A stretch of 64,000 bases of DNA, taken from positions 1-64,000 of the IMG/VR virus record IMGVR_UViG_3300034061_001913; one strand, 5' to 3'. Source of the DNA: a virus. How positions within the stretch are numbered: position 1 is the first letter of the stretch; each line of letters starts with the position of its first letter. Below are positions 1,097 to 13,510 of the stretch, one piece after another. The notes under the pieces are model-generated. The model saw only the letters and a list, made by a program, of their open reading frames with translations. It did no database searches and was not told the DNA's origin. The position numbers and the translations under genes are program-made.

Positions 1097-1195
1097 TAGT
1101 CAGGTGGCGGGGTCGCCAATGGAGACTCGTTAAAAGGAAAGATACCACATTGAGACGGTGGTAAATGCCATACAGTTTCGAATCTTGTCCGACTA
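1097..1195 (+). other. tRNA-Leu-like relic or structured RNA (uncertain)
   Basis: Bases 1098-1104 can pair with 1188-1194 (one mismatch, one G-T). Bases 1106-1109 pair with 1114-1117. Bases 1143-1148 pair perfectly with 1158-1163 around a loop containing TTGAGAC, which could be an anticodon loop reading GAG. Near the 3' end TTCGAAT sits in a T-loop position between imperfect stems. It is about 12-20 nt too long for a tRNA, with the excess between the first two arms, and has no CCA. It may be a decayed or interrupted tRNA or another structured RNA, and is followed by a terminator hairpin at 1207. Confidence 0.25.
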
Positions 1196-4474: not shown

Positions 4475-4816
4475 ATGAACAAAGTATCAAATTTCATCAA
4501 AGAAGTAACTGCCCGTTTGAAGGGTGACGAAGCAGGTGTCGTAGCTGCAAAAGTTGAACGTAAAGCACAAAGTGCTATTAACGGCCAATTGGCTGCTCTT
4601 AGAGCAAAATTGGTTGACGATGAGACTGCAGTAGAAGACGCTGAAGAAGCTTTCAACACAGCAGTATTCCCAACTAGTGTGTTTACGGACAACCGTCACT
4701 ATGTGACTCAAATCCAATCAGCAAACACTAAATTGGAAGAAGCGAAGGACCAACTTGAAGCTACCAAAGAAGCTATTGCTTTCTTTGAAAAGCTTGTAGC
4801 TGAGAACTTCGACTAA
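4475..4816 (+). CDS. small coiled-coil protein, probably highly expressed
   Basis: The 113-residue product is Ala/Glu/Lys-rich and predicted to be almost entirely helical, with heptad-like patterns at about 10-60 and 80-110. It uses more C-ending codons than its neighbours and is preceded by a 54-base leader made nearly only of A and C, then followed by a strong terminator. All three point to high expression as its own unit. Function unknown; a small structural or DNA-organising role is only a guess. Confidence 0.7.
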   Translation: MNKVSNFIKEVTARLKGDEAGVVAAKVERKAQSAINGQLAALRAKLVDDETAVEDAEEAFNTAVFPTSVFTDNRHYVTQIQSANTKLEEAKDQLEATKEAIAFFEKLVAENFD

Positions 4817-4850
4817 TCATTGACCGGTTTTTATTTTATTATTTAGTAGG

Positions 4851-4887
4851 TATGGGGATTTCTTCGGAGGTCCCCATATTTTTATTT
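4851..4887 (+). terminator. strong intrinsic terminator
   Basis: Bases 4851-4858 (TATGGGGA) pair perfectly with 4871-4878 (TCCCCATA), with a 12-nt loop, followed by a T run at 4879-4883. It ends the coiled-coil gene transcript immediately before the tRNA-shaped RNA. Confidence 0.85.
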
Positions 4888-4974
4888 GGTCAGATAGCTA
4901 CTATGTAGCAGTACATCCTGATTGTACTATAAAACTTTAGTTTTATGTGGGGGAGGAACCCACTCTGATCACCA
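4888..4974 (+). ncRNA. non-canonical tRNA-shaped RNA with encoded CCA
   Basis: The 87 bases fold exactly as a class II tRNA. The acceptor stem is 4888-4894 with 4964-4970 (7 bp, one G-T), then discriminator A and encoded CCA. The D-arm is 4897-4901/4905-4909 and the anticodon arm 4911-4915/4923-4927 around a 7-nt loop TCCTGAT (CTG in the anticodon position). The variable arm is long (4929-4936/4939-4946) and the T-arm is 4947-4951/4959-4963 with a 7-nt loop. However, the T-loop is GGAGGAA instead of TTCRANY, the D-loop lacks GG, and position 33 is C. It therefore looks like a tRNA mimic or a highly diverged tRNA rather than a standard one. Confidence 0.6.
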
Positions 4975-5060: not shown

Positions 5061-5110
5061 AACAAACACTAAAACACTAAAACACTAAAAAACTAAAACA
5101 CTAAAACACT
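5061..5110 (+). repeat. CACTAAAA tandem repeat leader
   Basis: Five to six copies of an 8-base unit CACTAAAA (one copy altered) run directly up to ATG 5111. Slippage-prone short repeats in the leader could vary translation of the next gene. No promoter motif is seen in this stretch. Confidence 0.7.
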
Positions 5111-5524
5111 ATGAAGAACAAATACAGAAAACCAAAGAAAATCGTTATCATTAACGGTAAAAAACATTTAGCAATCAGAGAAAGAAACTTTATTCCTCCT
5201 AAAGAGGAACCAACAAGAGCTACTCAAGAGTATGCTCTTCCTAAACATACTTCTCTTTTTGTAAAGATTCTAGAAGGAACCATTGAACAGAACTTAGAAT
5301 TCTATTTTAAAAAGATAGAAGTTAACTATAATTTGTTCAGAGAAGAAGCTTCAGCTAAATTACTAGCTGGAGACTATGAAGGTGCTAAACTTCTAGTAGA
5401 AAAATCTAAAGACCTAGAGAAAATACTTAAATCTTCTGCAAGCAAAGCAAAGATTACTTTAATGAGTATTCTTTTTTTGAACTTTGACAAACTAACTAGC
5501 GAAATCGTAAGCCGGTTAGATTAA
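5111..5524 (+). CDS. hypothetical basic/helical protein
   Basis: The 137-residue protein has a very basic N-terminus (K-N-K-Y-R-K-P-K-K), a Pro-rich linker near residue 40, and a helical C-terminal half with charged heptads. No enzymatic motif is seen and I do not recognise the family. It forms its own unit, with a tandem-repeat leader in front and a hairpin terminator behind. Confidence 0.6.
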   Translation: MKNKYRKPKKIVIINGKKHLAIRERNFIPPKEEPTRATQEYALPKHTSLFVKILEGTIEQNLEFYFKKIEVNYNLFREEASAKLLAGDYEGAKLLVEKSKDLEKILKSSASKAKITLMSILFLNFDKLTSEIVSRLD

Positions 5525-9290: not shown

Positions 9291-11087
9291 ATGGAAAAGA
9301 ACTTAATAATTGACTCTTTACTAATTAGCAAATTGGAGAGAATCAACTCTCCAATTTCTACACATTTACTTAATTTAAGAGAATCGGAACAAGATATTGA
9401 AAATTTATCTATTAATTACCTAGGTATTAGCTCAGAGAATCCTTCTTTTATCAGTTACTTAAATGAAGACCGCTACGAAAAGATAAAAAATACCAATAAA
9501 AGAGCTATAACTGATTTTACTTACACTTTTAAAGATAGTGCTTTTTATCCACCAGATATAGATGAGCTTAATATACCAGCAGATCTTTTTGACAATATTT
9601 TGTATTATCAGGAAGACTCAGATTTTCCTAAATACAAAAAAACGTTTAATTCAGAATTAGTGGGTACTTTTATTCTTCCGATTTTAGTATATTATACAGA
9701 CGGTCCAGAAATAGACTTAAAAGAAGTTTTAAAGTTTAAATTTGATGAACACGGATTAAATAGATTTTCTTTATGGCCTAGCAATTTTAATTATAATTTT
9801 ATAACCATTAGATGTAGTATTAGAGCTAATAAATTTCTTGATTACATAGATATTCAAGACATAAACACTATAGAAATTAATGATAATGATTTTTACAATC
9901 CTAAGTTAAGATACCACAGTTCTATAGGAAAGCTGTTAAAAAAAATCATTCCAAAAGTAGATTCTTTGTATGGGCAGAAAGAACTAGCAAATTTTATTAC
10001 TTTGTTTAAATCAGAGTCTTACAAAGAGTTAGGAACTAATCATGAGTTTATTTTTGAAGAAGCAACAGAAGATAGGATTCTTTGGGGCTACCACACAGAA
10101 AATTATTATCAAGATAGTAATACTCTAGGTAGTTCTTGTATGCGTTATAACCATTGTCAAGAGTATTTGCATATTTACTCAGAGAATCCAGACAAGATTA
10201 GTTTAGGTATGCTTCTTAAAGAAAATAAAGTTGCAGCAAGAGCTCTTATTTGGCGAATAGGAGATGATGTTTGGTTTGATCGTATCTATGCTATAAACCA
10301 TGACACAGAGATTATCTTAAAAAATCATTTAGAAGAGCTAAACATGAACAACTGCTATGACGAAGACTACAAATTGTTTGTTAATTTAAAAAACACTTAC
10401 TTTGACTATTATCCTTATATGGATACTTTCCGTTACTTAGTATTGGGTTCAGGCTTATGTAGTGATACGACTGTGACCTATGACAAAGAATTAACTGATG
10501 CAGAGGGTAATGTTGATGGCAGCGAATGCAGCAATTGCGGAAGTCACGAAGATTCAGATGATCTACACGAGATTACTGTGGGTCGTTACACAGGACATAT
10601 GATGTGTTCTGACTGTTGTACTCTTACAAAGGATGACGAGTGTATTGTATGTAGTGATGCTGTTTATTGTGAGTATGTAAATGGTCATTATCACCGAGAG
10701 GACGTAACAAGACTTCACGACGGAAATTACGTCCATAATTATGATGTAGTTGAAAGTTATGAAGGCAACTATTACATAAAAGATGATATTTCCGACTATG
10801 CAGTTAAGTACAAAGATCAGTGGTATGAGTTTACTGGAGATTACACAGTAGAAGTAAACGGAGAATGGTATCACAGAGACTCTGAAGATATTGAATATAT
10901 TGAAGGAGAATATGTTGAAGCCGAGTCAGAACGTTACTATGAATTATTAGAACAAGTTAAATTAAGAGAAAATCTCCAAGAAACGAAAGAAGAAGTTAAA
11001 CTACAAGAAAACAAAACAAATGACGAACAAAGCAAAGAAATCAATACCATCTCAGCAGAAGAAGACTTTTACCCCTTCCCCCTCTAA
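9291..11087 (+). CDS. large phage protein with S-C-M-R-Y domain and C-terminal zinc fingers
   Basis: The 598-residue protein has three parts. Residues 1-240 are an unrecognised helical region. Around 250-350 comes a domain with S-S-C-M-R-Y-N-H-C (Cys283), Y-S-E-N-P-D-K-I-S-L-G-M-L and A-R-A-L-I-W-R; I have seen this pattern in large-phage hypothetical proteins, and its function is unknown to me. Residues 413-460 contain C-x-x-C-G, C-S-D-C-C and C-I-V-C pairs, i.e. one or two zinc fingers, followed by short repeats with W-Y-x-F and G-E-Y motifs. The last 68 bases overlap exon 1 of the metallopeptidase gene, so the two are probably coupled. Confidence 0.6.
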   Translation: MEKNLIIDSLLISKLERINSPISTHLLNLRESEQDIENLSINYLGISSENPSFISYLNEDRYEKIKNTNKRAITDFTYTFKDSAFYPPDIDELNIPADLFDNILYYQEDSDFPKYKKTFNSELVGTFILPILVYYTDGPEIDLKEVLKFKFDEHGLNRFSLWPSNFNYNFITIRCSIRANKFLDYIDIQDINTIEINDNDFYNPKLRYHSSIGKLLKKIIPKVDSLYGQKELANFITLFKSESYKELGTNHEFIFEEATEDRILWGYHTENYYQDSNTLGSSCMRYNHCQEYLHIYSENPDKISLGMLLKENKVAARALIWRIGDDVWFDRIYAINHDTEIILKNHLEELNMNNCYDEDYKLFVNLKNTYFDYYPYMDTFRYLVLGSGLCSDTTVTYDKELTDAEGNVDGSECSNCGSHEDSDDLHEITVGRYTGHMMCSDCCTLTKDDECIVCSDAVYCEYVNGHYHREDVTRLHDGNYVHNYDVVESYEGNYYIKDDISDYAVKYKDQWYEFTGDYTVEVNGEWYHRDSEDIEYIEGEYVEAESERYYELLEQVKLRENLQETKEEVKLQENKTNDEQSKEINTISAEEDFYPFPL

Positions 11088-11487
11088 AAAAAAAGAAAAG
11101 TATTATGATGCTTCTGATACCTCTAATTCCTATAGAAGCTATTACGAGAACAAGCCTTCTTTTCCTGTATTAGACAATGAAATTAAAATTGATTGGGATT
11201 TATTTTATAATTTACTAGAACAGCAAACCCCTAGCAGAAGTATTCAACAAGAAAGGTTCTTAGAATGGTTGGTACAATATCTTACTAAAGTTCCTGGAGT
11301 AGAAGTTACAAGAGACAATTTTGGTAACATCTATGCAGTTAAAGGAGAAGCAGAGTTTTATCCTTGTGTCATAGCGCATACTGACATTAACCAAGACTAT
11401 ACTACTCATTTGAAAATAGTAAGAAACGAAAAGTGGGTTTATGGTATGGATATGGATACTGGGCTACAATGCGGTGTCGGTTTCGAT
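11020..11487 (+). CDS. M20-like metallopeptidase, exon 1 (5' part of split gene)
   Basis: Exon 1 codes for residues 1-156 of a gene interrupted by an intron. After a Lys/Ser-rich N-terminus it contains the metal-binding A-H-T-D motif (His120, Asp122) and ends G-V-G-F-D (Asp156). Joined to exon 2 this gives G-V-G-F-D-D-K-N-G, the G-x-D-D-K block typical of M20/M28-type zinc aminopeptidases. Without splicing the frame would read 8 more codons into the intron and stop at 11511. The full spliced protein would be 411 residues. The start overlaps the preceding gene by 68 bases. Confidence 0.8.
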
Positions 11488-11558
11488 AAATGTTGTCGCG
11501 TAGTACAGTAATGTACTAATGAAAATTGGGTAAAATCGGAGAAAGCTAAACGAAACTA

Positions 11559-11589
11559 TTGACTTTTATTTTTTAATTTTGTATTTTTG
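11559..11589 (+). promoter_or_regulatory. Bacteroidetes-type promoter inside the intron
   Basis: TTG at 11559-11561, 20 nt, then TATTTTTG at 11582-11589 match the -33/-7 consensus. The predicted start of transcription coincides with ATG 11594, so the endonuclease message would be leaderless. Confidence 0.7.
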
Positions 11590-11593
11590 TCAA

Positions 11594-12610
11594 ATGAGTA
11601 CAAGGTTAGATGATATAAAAATAAAAGAAATGTTTGAAGAGTACGAAAACTGTGCTGAAATAAACATTTCTCAGTTGGCTAAAAAATATGGAATTTGCAG
11701 AAGCTCTTTTCATAAACTAAGAGAATTATATAATATCTCTGAAAAAGATAGATTAGATACAAAATATCCTAAACTTCTTATACAGGAAATACATAACAAG
11801 TACTTAAATGAGGGTACTAGTTTAGTAGCATTGTACAAAGAGTATAAAATCAAACCTTTTAGGTTAAAAGAAAGGTTTGAGAAATATGGATTTAAAGTAA
11901 AAAACCCTAAACAAGGGTTAAATCTAAACTTTTTTGATAATATTGATTCTGAAATTAAAGCCTATTTACTAGGATTTATTGTAGGAGATGGTTCTGTTTC
12001 AGATGAAGGATTGCATATCAGAGTGGCTTATAATGATATTTATATCATAAAGTTATTTCAAAAGTATATTAATCCAGAAGTTGAAATAAAACATCTCCCC
12101 TTAGAAAACCAACAAGATCAAGTCATAATAAACTTTTATAGCGTTGAATTAATAAAAAAATTAGAAAATTACGGTATAGTACAGAATAAAACGTATGTAC
12201 CTATGTGTATTCCTGAGATGCCAAAAGACTTAGTGAGGCATTTTATAAGAGGATATTACGATGCAGATGGTACTGCAAGTTTTGGGGTTAAAATAAATCC
12301 TAAGACTCAAAATACAAAAGGAACTACTTTTAAAGCTGCTTTTACTTCACATCTTCCCAATTTACTGGAAGATATAGTAAAAAACTTAGCTATAAAGAAT
12401 ATTTCAAGTTCTTTAAATTATTATAGGAATAACAAACAAAACTATTACTACTCCTTAGTAATTAGTATGAGGTGTTTAGATTTGTTTGAGAACTACCTGT
12501 ACCAAGATTCTAATTTTTATTTATTAAGAAAACGAGAAAAGTTTTTGTTGCGCATGCTAACACCGAGGGAAGCCTTGATATTAAAAAATCAAGTGCCCCG
12601 TAACGCATAG
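11594..12610 (+). CDS. LAGLIDADG homing endonuclease (intron-encoded)
   Basis: The 338-residue protein carries two LAGLIDADG motifs, L-L-G-F-I-V-G-D-G-S-V at 125-135 and H-F-I-R-G-Y-Y-D-A-D-G-T-A at 216-228. Asp134 region and Asp226 region provide the metal-binding acidic residues, so it is a single-chain two-motif enzyme. The N-terminal 110 residues look like one or two helix-turn-helix segments (I-S-Q-L-A-K-K-Y-G-I-C-R-S-S-F), probably for DNA recognition. It cleaves intronless alleles and spreads the intron. A TTG at 11579 could extend the frame by five codons, but it lies inside the promoter, so ATG 11594 is preferred. Confidence 0.92.
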   Translation: MSTRLDDIKIKEMFEEYENCAEINISQLAKKYGICRSSFHKLRELYNISEKDRLDTKYPKLLIQEIHNKYLNEGTSLVALYKEYKIKPFRLKERFEKYGFKVKNPKQGLNLNFFDNIDSEIKAYLLGFIVGDGSVSDEGLHIRVAYNDIYIIKLFQKYINPEVEIKHLPLENQQDQVIINFYSVELIKKLENYGIVQNKTYVPMCIPEMPKDLVRHFIRGYYDADGTASFGVKINPKTQNTKGTTFKAAFTSHLPNLLEDIVKNLAIKNISSSLNYYRNNKQNYYYSLVISMRCLDLFENYLYQDSNFYLLRKREKFLLRMLTPREALILKNQVPRNA

Positions 12611-12742
12611 GGATTGAACCTCTAACGAGAATATAACATCCCCACGAGTATCCGACACCCTTAGTCAAGGGTGATAATGTATGCTGAACTTATGGGAAAC
12701 CATAAGAACTATAGGATAAAAAGCCTATAGGATAACATAATG

Positions 12743-13510
12743 GACAAAAATGGCTGTTTGTTTGCTTTGACTATGCTAAAACACTTAGACGCTATTAAGA
12801 TAGCTTTCTTTAAAGACGAGGAGATTGGAGCTGTAGGTAGCAAAAAAGCAGATCCTACTTTTTTCTATGACTGTTCAATGATTTTTCAAATGGACAGAAA
12901 TTCCTACAAAGGCTTAGAGCTAATAACCTATACTAATGGGGTTACTAGTTGCTCTAAGGAATTTGTAGAGGCTGCACAACCCTTAATGACTAAATATTCT
13001 GTTACAGAAGGAAACGGTATCTTTACAGATGTTGGAGAAATTGTAAAATTAGCAGGAGTTGATTGTATCGGTTGCAATATTGGAGCTGGTTATTTTGACG
13101 AGCATTCTGAAAGAGAAATCACTTCTATTCAAGCTCTAGAAAATTCTATTAACTTTGGCTATGAATGTCTACTTACTCTTGGGAGTACTAAATGGTATCA
13201 CAGAACAGGTAACTCTCAAAGAAAAGATAAAAGAAGTTACAGAGACGAAATGTACGATGCATACTTTGTAGAACAATCTGCACAACTTCAAATGCCAGAT
13301 TACGAGTACAGGCACGTCTTTTCTGAATTAACAGATGAGGATTATTTAAGTGATACAGACATCCTTTATGACTTAAATGATGGTTTTTGTCCTTGTTGCG
13401 GTAGTCAGGATTTATGTCAAGAAGGTTATTCACATGCTAGTATTTCTTGTTTTGACTGTGGATCTCTTTATTTTGTACCTACACACTATTTAAAAGAACA
13501 ACTTAATTAA
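12743..13510 (+). CDS. M20-like metallopeptidase, exon 2 (3' part of split gene)
   Basis: Exon 2 supplies residues 157-411. It completes the active site with Asp157 (bridging Asp of D-D-K), the catalytic/metal pair Glu182-Glu183 in F-K-D-E-E-I-G, Asp207 in M-D-R-N, and the last metal ligand His277 in F-D-E-H-S-E-R-E. About 95 residues beyond the peptidase core, C-P-C-C-G and C-F-D-C-G (372-396) form a zinc ribbon not usual in this family. The ATG at 12740 is an artefact of the exon border: T-G belongs to the intron. The protein should act as a cytoplasmic exo- or dipeptidase; the substrate is unknown. Confidence 0.82.
   Translation, partial: DKNGCLFALTMLKHLDAIKIAFFKDEEIGAVGSKKADPTFFYDCSMIFQMDRNSYKGLELITYTNGVTSCSKEFVEAAQPLMTKYSVTEGNGIFTDVGEIVKLAGVDCIGCNIGAGYFDEHSEREITSIQALENSINFGYECLLTLGSTKWYHRTGNSQRKDKRSYRDEMYDAYFVEQSAQLQMPDYEYRHVFSELTDEDYLSDTDILYDLNDGFCPCCGSQDLCQEGYSHASISCFDCGSLYFVPTHYLKEQLN

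Follow-up and report, generated by a model that had tools for sequence, protein, structure and literature searches.

A tRNA-shaped RNA with non-consensus loops in a freshwater crAss-like phage, and a class of phage tRNA look-alikes

Genomic context

We analysed a 64-kb stretch of viral DNA (the window), taken from the 74-kb IMG/VR record IMGVR_UViG_3300034061_001913, and in particular a transfer RNA (tRNA)-like RNA of 87 nucleotides (nt) at positions 4888–4974. The source is a freshwater crAss-like phage, whose DNA polymerase matches those of crAss-like phages at 35–40% and that of Leptolyngbya phage Lbo-JY46 at 51%. Its crAss-like relatives and its A-rich leaders suggest a Bacteroidota-like host. 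The element had been predicted from the letters alone to lie between a terminator and a gene with a repeat leader, and both flanks are present. From the element to the ATG of the downstream gene (5111) there are 136 nt, with another hairpin in between. No family and no IMG/VR relative was found for this gene. The features of the locus are as follows.

4475–4816, plus strand: upstream gene, 113 amino acids; its homologues, 71–79% identical in eight phage records, served as synteny anchor
4848–4881, plus strand: terminator-like hairpin belonging to the upstream gene; its end lies 6 nt before the tRNA-like RNA
4888–4974, plus strand: tRNA-like RNA, a complete cloverleaf with encoded CCA, 87 nt, seen by folding and called by neither ARAGORN nor Rfam
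4888–4894, plus strand: acceptor 5′ strand GGTCAGA, 7 base pairs (bp) with TCTGATC at 4964–4970, pair probabilities 0.87–1.0
4897–4909, plus strand: D-arm GCTAC-TAT-GTAGC without GG, 5 bp and a 3-nt loop or 4 bp and 5 nt
4911–4927, plus strand: anticodon arm GTACA-TCCTGAT-TGTAC (5/7/5), loop UCCUGAU, C at position 33, nominal anticodon CUG
4929–4946, plus strand: long variable arm ATAAAAC-TTTA-GTTTTAT, 7 bp and a 4-nt loop
4947–4963, plus strand: T-arm GTGGG-GGAGGAA-CCCAC (5/7/5), loop without TTCRANY
4964–4974, plus strand: acceptor 3′ strand (4964–4970), discriminator A73 (4971) and CCA (4972–4974)
5065–5110, plus strand: ACACTAAA-type repeat leader ahead of the downstream gene
5111–5524, plus strand: downstream gene, 137 amino acids

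Structure of the element

The element has the anatomy of a tRNA, at the coordinates and with the geometry originally assigned to it. TA joins the acceptor to the D-arm, and a single A and a single T flank the anticodon arm. Its 29 pairs comprise 28 Watson-Crick pairs and one G-U (acceptor pair 2-71). In its four-arm cloverleaf, 7-bp acceptor and 5/7/5 anticodon and T arms it agrees with canonical tRNA (RF00005), from which it departs in the TTCRANY T-loop, the D-loop GG, U33 and detection by ARAGORN and Rfam. The claim that its loops are non-consensus (T-loop GGAGGAA, D-loop without GG, C33) therefore stands. With C33 and no D-loop/T-loop elbow, the RNA is predicted to be unable to decode. Selenocysteine or suppressor tRNA identity was rejected, as U33 and consensus loops are missing. 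The anticodon loop and the T-loop could form a UCCU/AGGA kissing contact; it amounts to just 4 bp, expected by chance in a few per cent of cases, and was not used.

The fold is not random. The full cloverleaf is the minimum-energy structure, at −31.2 kcal/mol compared with −18.7 ± 3.3 for shuffled sequences (z = −3.8; 1 of 200 shuffles as good). No pair falls below an ensemble probability of 0.87, and the fold is retained when ~100 nt of flank is included (mean 0.98). The minus strand folds at only −24.3, and the CCA exists on the plus strand only.

A cloverleaf descriptor blind to loop sequence matched the window once on both strands, at the element itself. The same descriptor gave 64 matches in 88.4 Mb of first-order Markov sequence with the window's dinucleotide make-up (~0.09 per window for the two strands together), and CCA followed none of them; because the descriptor was devised after the feature had been seen, this is a strong indication of rarity and not a formal test. 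ARAGORN found no tRNA anywhere in the window. Rfam gave no family at 4888–4974 with relaxed filters and a cut-off of E ≤ 10, apart from sub-threshold matches at chance level. A standard tRNA is absent from the window, where the Rfam tRNA model gave just a 9.5-bit stretch inside positions 1098–1195.

The same site in related phages

Homologues of the 4475–4816 gene carry tRNA or tRNA-like genes downstream, and the element therefore occupies the tRNA slot of its relatives. We refer to the phage sequence stretches compared by L-numbers. In L008, a tRNA-Leu(UAA) with CCA (L008:5412–5500) stands right after the hairpin 3′ of the homologue. In L006, three odd tRNA-like genes begin immediately behind a hairpin of that kind, giving the order of gene, hairpin and tRNA-like RNA found in the window. 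In L009, L002 and L005, tRNA or tRNA-like genes lie farther downstream, past one small extra gene; L009 has a real tRNA-Leu(UAA) near the site. The element and the L008 tRNA-Leu have the same T-stem, GTGGG/CCCAC. In the odd tRNA-like genes the acceptor is intact, the D-arm is of tRNA-Leu type and the T-arm follows the consensus, but a proper anticodon arm is missing. In the relatives, unrelated genes follow the tRNA-like genes.

Sequence searches gave no direct homologue. The exact T-arm had no match in IMG/VR, and the ten matches to a loop-anchored pattern were all chance matches without stems. An acceptor-anchored pattern returned mostly chance coding matches and ordinary GGTCAGG tRNAs. A covariance model built from the single sequence found nothing in the eight relatives and, with filters off, recovered tRNA-like genes by shape only; in L014 the three best matches of the loop-blind model were its tRNA-Leu and two tRNA-like genes. 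The region had no match among annotated phages.

A class of phage tRNA-like RNAs

The odd genes of the relatives belong to a class of tRNA-like RNAs that we name after its commonest acceptor, AGTCAGG. We searched IMG/VR with a pattern that required the D-arm and the T-arm with 48–78 nt between them and left the acceptor unselected beyond its last base; the collection patterns are biased to the canonical scaffold. A tRNA-Leu-like scaffold of this kind was present in at least 120 IMG/VR stretches (L044–L163; for example, L071:4417 and L104:7977), as well as in the relatives L002–L009 (for example, L006:5552 and L002:6067). In place of the anticodon and variable region, these scaffolds carry hypervariable modules of 48–78 nt. 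Among the 71 distinct expanded members listed, 63 had a full 7-pair acceptor, and 90% of positions were paired across 21 distinct acceptor pairs compared with 59% in shuffles (maximum 75%). Acceptors were mostly AGTCAGG/CCTGACT; others included AACACAG/CTGTGTT, TCCATAG/CTATGGA and TACCGGG/CCCGGTA, and GGTCAGG was used by L084, L094, L152, L162, L204 and L205. An ACCA end occurred in 31 of 167 listed members, partly owing to the design of the search.

The interiors were mostly unrelated to each other, with 123 singletons among the 208 elements collected (some ordinary tRNAs counted in). Those examined closely were pseudoknots with compensatory changes, in small families. In L071, L132 and L143 (96% identical), the stems GGTCTC/GAGACC, AGTCCC/GGGACT and GGTTTC/GAAACC together with a covarying hairpin form an interleaved pseudoknot; both members of four pairs had changed, 98.9% of cells were paired, and slid versions lost the pairing. 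L109, L118 and L140 gave the same pseudoknot reading by eye. One module recurred with different acceptors (L002, L060, L086). Several members, such as L222, L228 and L242, were plain and without a pseudoknot.

A tRNA with an intron is an unlikely description of the class, the inserts being short (48–78 nt) and without flanking anticodon stem halves in those inspected. Scaffold matches in Synechococcus T7-like phages were set aside; they adjoin an integrase gene and look like attachment-site tRNA fragments. The scaffold was not found in genome contigs, and Leptolyngbya phage Lbo-JY46 (L166) had ordinary tRNAs and no AGTCAGG element. We found no published description or name for the class in the open-access literature, a coverage that leaves out subscription papers and most preprints. 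It is apparently a large, undescribed group of phage tRNA look-alikes and, if confirmed, would be new in its own right.

Several details of the class were observed in passing. An 8-nt loop, TAATGAAT, occurs in tRNA-like genes of two different phages (L006:5702 and L222, reverse strand 2686), carried on the different covarying anticodon stems ATACCAC/GTGGTA and ACCTTGC/GCAAGG, as if the loop itself were the selected part. A module with a 6-bp anticodon stem and a 5-nt loop (TCGCT/TAGCT) occurs in L006:5372, L204 and L228 with three different acceptors (ACCAGAG, GGTCAGG and AGTCAGG). A conserved spacer hairpin, TTGACAGCTNGGAAAGACNAGCAA, whose stem letters vary but mostly match, precedes elements in L002, L004, L006, L090, L095, L101, L117 and L118, and a longer spacer, CCAAGAGCATTTTACATGAACACTGG, recurs between tRNA-like elements. 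The cultured phage Lbo-JY46 has an unannotated 101-nt tRNA-like gene (L166 1172–1272, reverse strand) with a TATCAGA acceptor, a consensus T-arm and an expanded anticodon/variable region.

The element as a divergent member of the class

The element shares its place with class members, which follow the 4475–4816 homologue in L006 and lie further downstream in L002 and L005. Its acceptor has six of seven letters in common with the GGTCAGG of the class, and pairing was kept through changes on both strands. Set against the prevailing [A/G]GTCAGG and CCTGAC[T/C] strands, GGTCAGA/TCTGATC retains the GTCAG core with its outer pairs changed jointly; the class has other acceptors too. It also has the purine discriminator and CCA (ACCA, 4971–4974).

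A loop-blind class search, with acceptor and CCA as sole criteria, recovered canonical-loop members and three others that have a perfect T-stem, a non-consensus T-loop and ACCA.

L104:8299: T-arm GTAAG-TGCAATT-CTTAC, D-loop without GG, ~220 nt from a canonical-loop member
L227:137: T-arm GCAGG-GGTAGTT-CCTGC, carried by a phage with a DNA polymerase 52% identical to the window's
L242:2583: T-arm ACATG-GTCAGTA-CATGT, 8-nt anticodon loop, ~75 nt from a canonical-loop member

These three phage elements with AGTCAGG acceptors resemble the element in joining perfect stems to fully diverged loops, which supports the original prediction that such a fold is selected for shape and not for translation. 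The roles suggested along with that prediction, decoy or RNase P signal, are both possible. When 2.25 Mb of sequence was scanned for cloverleaves of any kind with an RCCA end, 73 matches were obtained; with ordinary tRNAs of mildly variant loops set aside, only the element, L104 and L242 were grossly non-canonical, although most of the scanned sequence had been collected for tRNA-like scaffolds and the scan is thus not an unbiased survey.

The element lacks the tRNA-Leu-like D-arm TGGCGGAATTGGTA and the T-arm CAGG-TTCRA-CCTG of the class. This T-arm is also missing from L104 and L242, while L227 retains the T-stem and loses the loop. Because place, shape, acceptor core and end fit the class, and D-arm, T-stem sequence and pseudoknot do not, we favour membership as a divergent form with some reserve. 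Taken alone, the element is a variant form of phage tRNA-like RNA that is itself new.

Discussion

We propose that 4888–4974 encodes a non-decoding tRNA mimic that is matured by tRNA enzymes and acts in trans, possibly as a decoy, as a divergent member of the AGTCAGG-type class. This is a tentative reading, to which we give a probability of roughly 0.4. The element and the class probably pass through the tRNA machinery of the cell without serving translation. The class appears to keep the acceptor stem, T-stem and CCA end of a tRNA and to give up the decoding end. Transcription of the element would depend on read-through of the 4848–4881 hairpin or on an unrecognised phage promoter. Host ribonuclease P (RNase P) would then cut the 5′ end at 4887/4888, reading the stacked acceptor/T helix and RCCA, and the 3′ side would be trimmed to the encoded CCA. 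Both substrate features, the acceptor/T stack and RCCA, are present, and RNase P cleaves non-tRNA folds given RCCA (PMC12710915). The product would persist as a small, stable, CCA-ended RNA unable to decode, and would act by occupying enzymes that recognise tRNA through its shape and CCA end.

The likeliest target of such a decoy would be a host defence that attacks tRNA. Cas12a3, a defence nuclease of Bacteroidetes, reads tRNA by the T-arm backbone, acceptor and CCA; loops are dispensable, their removal leaving cleavage unimpaired (PMC12851939). Altered anticodon loops in phage tRNAs have been proposed as a means of countering tRNA-cutting defences (PMC10264068), and in other systems such an effect has been shown (PMC11555353). 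More broadly, and just as tentatively, phages of freshwater Bacteroidota-like hosts may carry widespread, undescribed RNAs built on a tRNA scaffold, with interchangeable, fast-diversifying folded modules, often pseudoknots, standing in for the decoding half of tRNA-Leu. The element would be the extreme form, reduced to tRNA shape and CCA, and these RNAs would mature like tRNAs and serve the phage against host enzymes that act on tRNA or attack it.

Several points weigh against this proposal. We know of no tRNA-targeting defence in the host of this phage. No promoter match was found for the element, and neither the eight related phage records nor the IMG/VR pattern scans yielded a homologue or covariation for the element itself. 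The letters of its D-arm, T-stem and T-loop are unlike the class scaffold, its anticodon arm is a plain 5/7/5 arm with no pseudoknotted module, and no intermediate linking it directly to the class was found. Finally, class members often sit tightly between genes or next to other structured RNAs, which would fit a cis processing role too.

That cis role is, after the trans-acting mimic, the reading that survives best, though we consider it unlikely. The tRNA shape would be a cut signal for RNase P (and a 3′ tRNase) and the excised piece would be jobless; the cuts would detach the upstream transcript from the 5111 gene's leader, or free neighbouring structured RNAs. Class members are often wedged between genes or adjoin other conserved structured RNAs. 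Of the 80 assessable, ~28% have an upstream stop on the same strand at a distance of up to 30 nt, and 28% have an ATG equally close downstream. The parts that class members retain (acceptor, T-stem and 3′ end) are those that RNase P reads, the loops being unneeded. However, the terminator-like hairpin 6 nt before 4888 already ends the upstream unit, so a cut at 4887/4888 would add little, which is a mild argument, and the next ATG is well downstream of the element. Moreover, the class interiors show compensatory changes and recur across phages with different acceptors, which a pure cut signal would not need. The recurring modules argue that the class, at least, does more than mark cut sites.

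Clearly less probable is that the element is a decaying relic of an ordinary phage tRNA-Leu that has lost its function. L008 has a real tRNA-Leu(UAA) gene at this site and L009 one close by, the T-stem is shared with the L008 gene, and the window holds a degenerate tRNA-like copy at 1098–1195. Decay would break stems as quickly as loops and is therefore unlikely here, where 29 of 29 pairs and the CCA are intact, yet all seven T-loop letters and the D-loop consensus are lost. The true relic at 1098 has a broken acceptor.

A cis-regulatory leader, in which the fold would control translation or stability of the 5111 gene, is no more probable than a relic. It might be an operator for a tRNA-binding protein, of which the thrS operator is an example. 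The element does lie in the same-strand leader of 5111–5524, and many class members sit 15–20 nt before an ATG. Here, however, the distance to the ATG and the intervening hairpin speak against control of the gene, which has no recognisable family or relatives, and the relatives of the phage have unrelated genes after their tRNA-like genes. Chance, or DNA-level hairpins with no RNA role, is very improbable: the element is a single copy without a homologue and ~0.09 such cloverleaves are expected per window, but CCA followed none of the 64 chance matches, the element is exactly in the tRNA slot of the relatives, and the strand with the CCA folds better.

Among known systems, the element resembles the phage tRNA-Leu (class II tRNA, RF00005), with which it shares 7/5 acceptor-T stacking, the long variable arm, A73, CCA and the slot seen in L008, whereas consensus loops, U33 and detectability distinguish that tRNA. 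With the AGTCAGG class it has in common the GTCAG acceptor core, A73 and CCA, a non-decoding anticodon region and location, along with the non-consensus T-loops of L104, L227 and L242; it differs in D-arm, CAGG T-stem and the absence of a pseudoknotted insert. Defence-resistant phage tRNAs likewise come from phage genes whose anticodon loops are altered, and have been proposed (PMC10264068) or shown (PMC11555353) to defeat tRNA-targeting defences. They decode and replace cleaved host tRNAs, whereas the element is not expected to decode. The tRNA-like structure of the plant virus turnip yellow mosaic virus, an RNase P substrate, is also a viral tRNA mimic with a CCA end, and has pseudoknots as class members do; its pseudoknotted acceptor is at the genome 3′ end (PMC12710915), in contrast to a plain 7-bp acceptor inside a DNA phage genome. 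Transfer-messenger RNA (tmRNA) resembles class members in joining a tRNA acceptor and T-arm to a substitute for the anticodon arm; the class has no tag reading frame, is much shorter and has no Rfam or ARAGORN tmRNA match.

The class is more interesting than the copy in the window. The reason for tRNA genes in phages has been a matter of debate for decades. RNAs reduced to the features that tRNA-processing or tRNA-attacking enzymes see would separate codon supply from fooling of the tRNA machinery as an explanation, and would make the question testable with single short RNAs. The hypervariable modules would offer a natural set of compact RNA folds mounted on a tRNA scaffold. Such RNAs may be overlooked or misnamed by tRNA finders tuned to consensus loops and normal length.

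Additional observations

Downstream of the 4475-gene homologue, L002, L005, L006 and L008 have a hairpin with the conserved loop CATACCG(T)AAGATCTG, varying closing stems and then a T-run; this may be one more structured phage RNA or a terminator. The Rfam freshwater-1 RNA (RF02979) occurs in L002, L003, L004, L007 and L008, in the last directly after the tRNA-Leu, and L008:2520–2582 is a Pistol ribozyme; Rfam found neither RNA in the window. The window has the following further tRNA-like element.

1098–1195, plus strand: second, degenerate AGTCAGG-class tRNA-like element, AGTCAGGTGGCGG...TTTCGAATCTTGTCCGACTA, Rfam tRNA 9.5 bits

This element is one base short in its 3′ acceptor strand, its D-arm is a perfect hairpin (GGCG-GGGT-CGCC), and an HNH endonuclease gene (1214–1684) follows directly. 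Elsewhere in the window, a LAGLIDADG-type endonuclease open reading frame (11579–12610) sits between 11020–11511 and 12740–13510. Positions 12740–13510 match the rest of the peptidase family phrog_4191 (positions 101–251), and the peptidase gene across 11020–13510 may be split by an intron.
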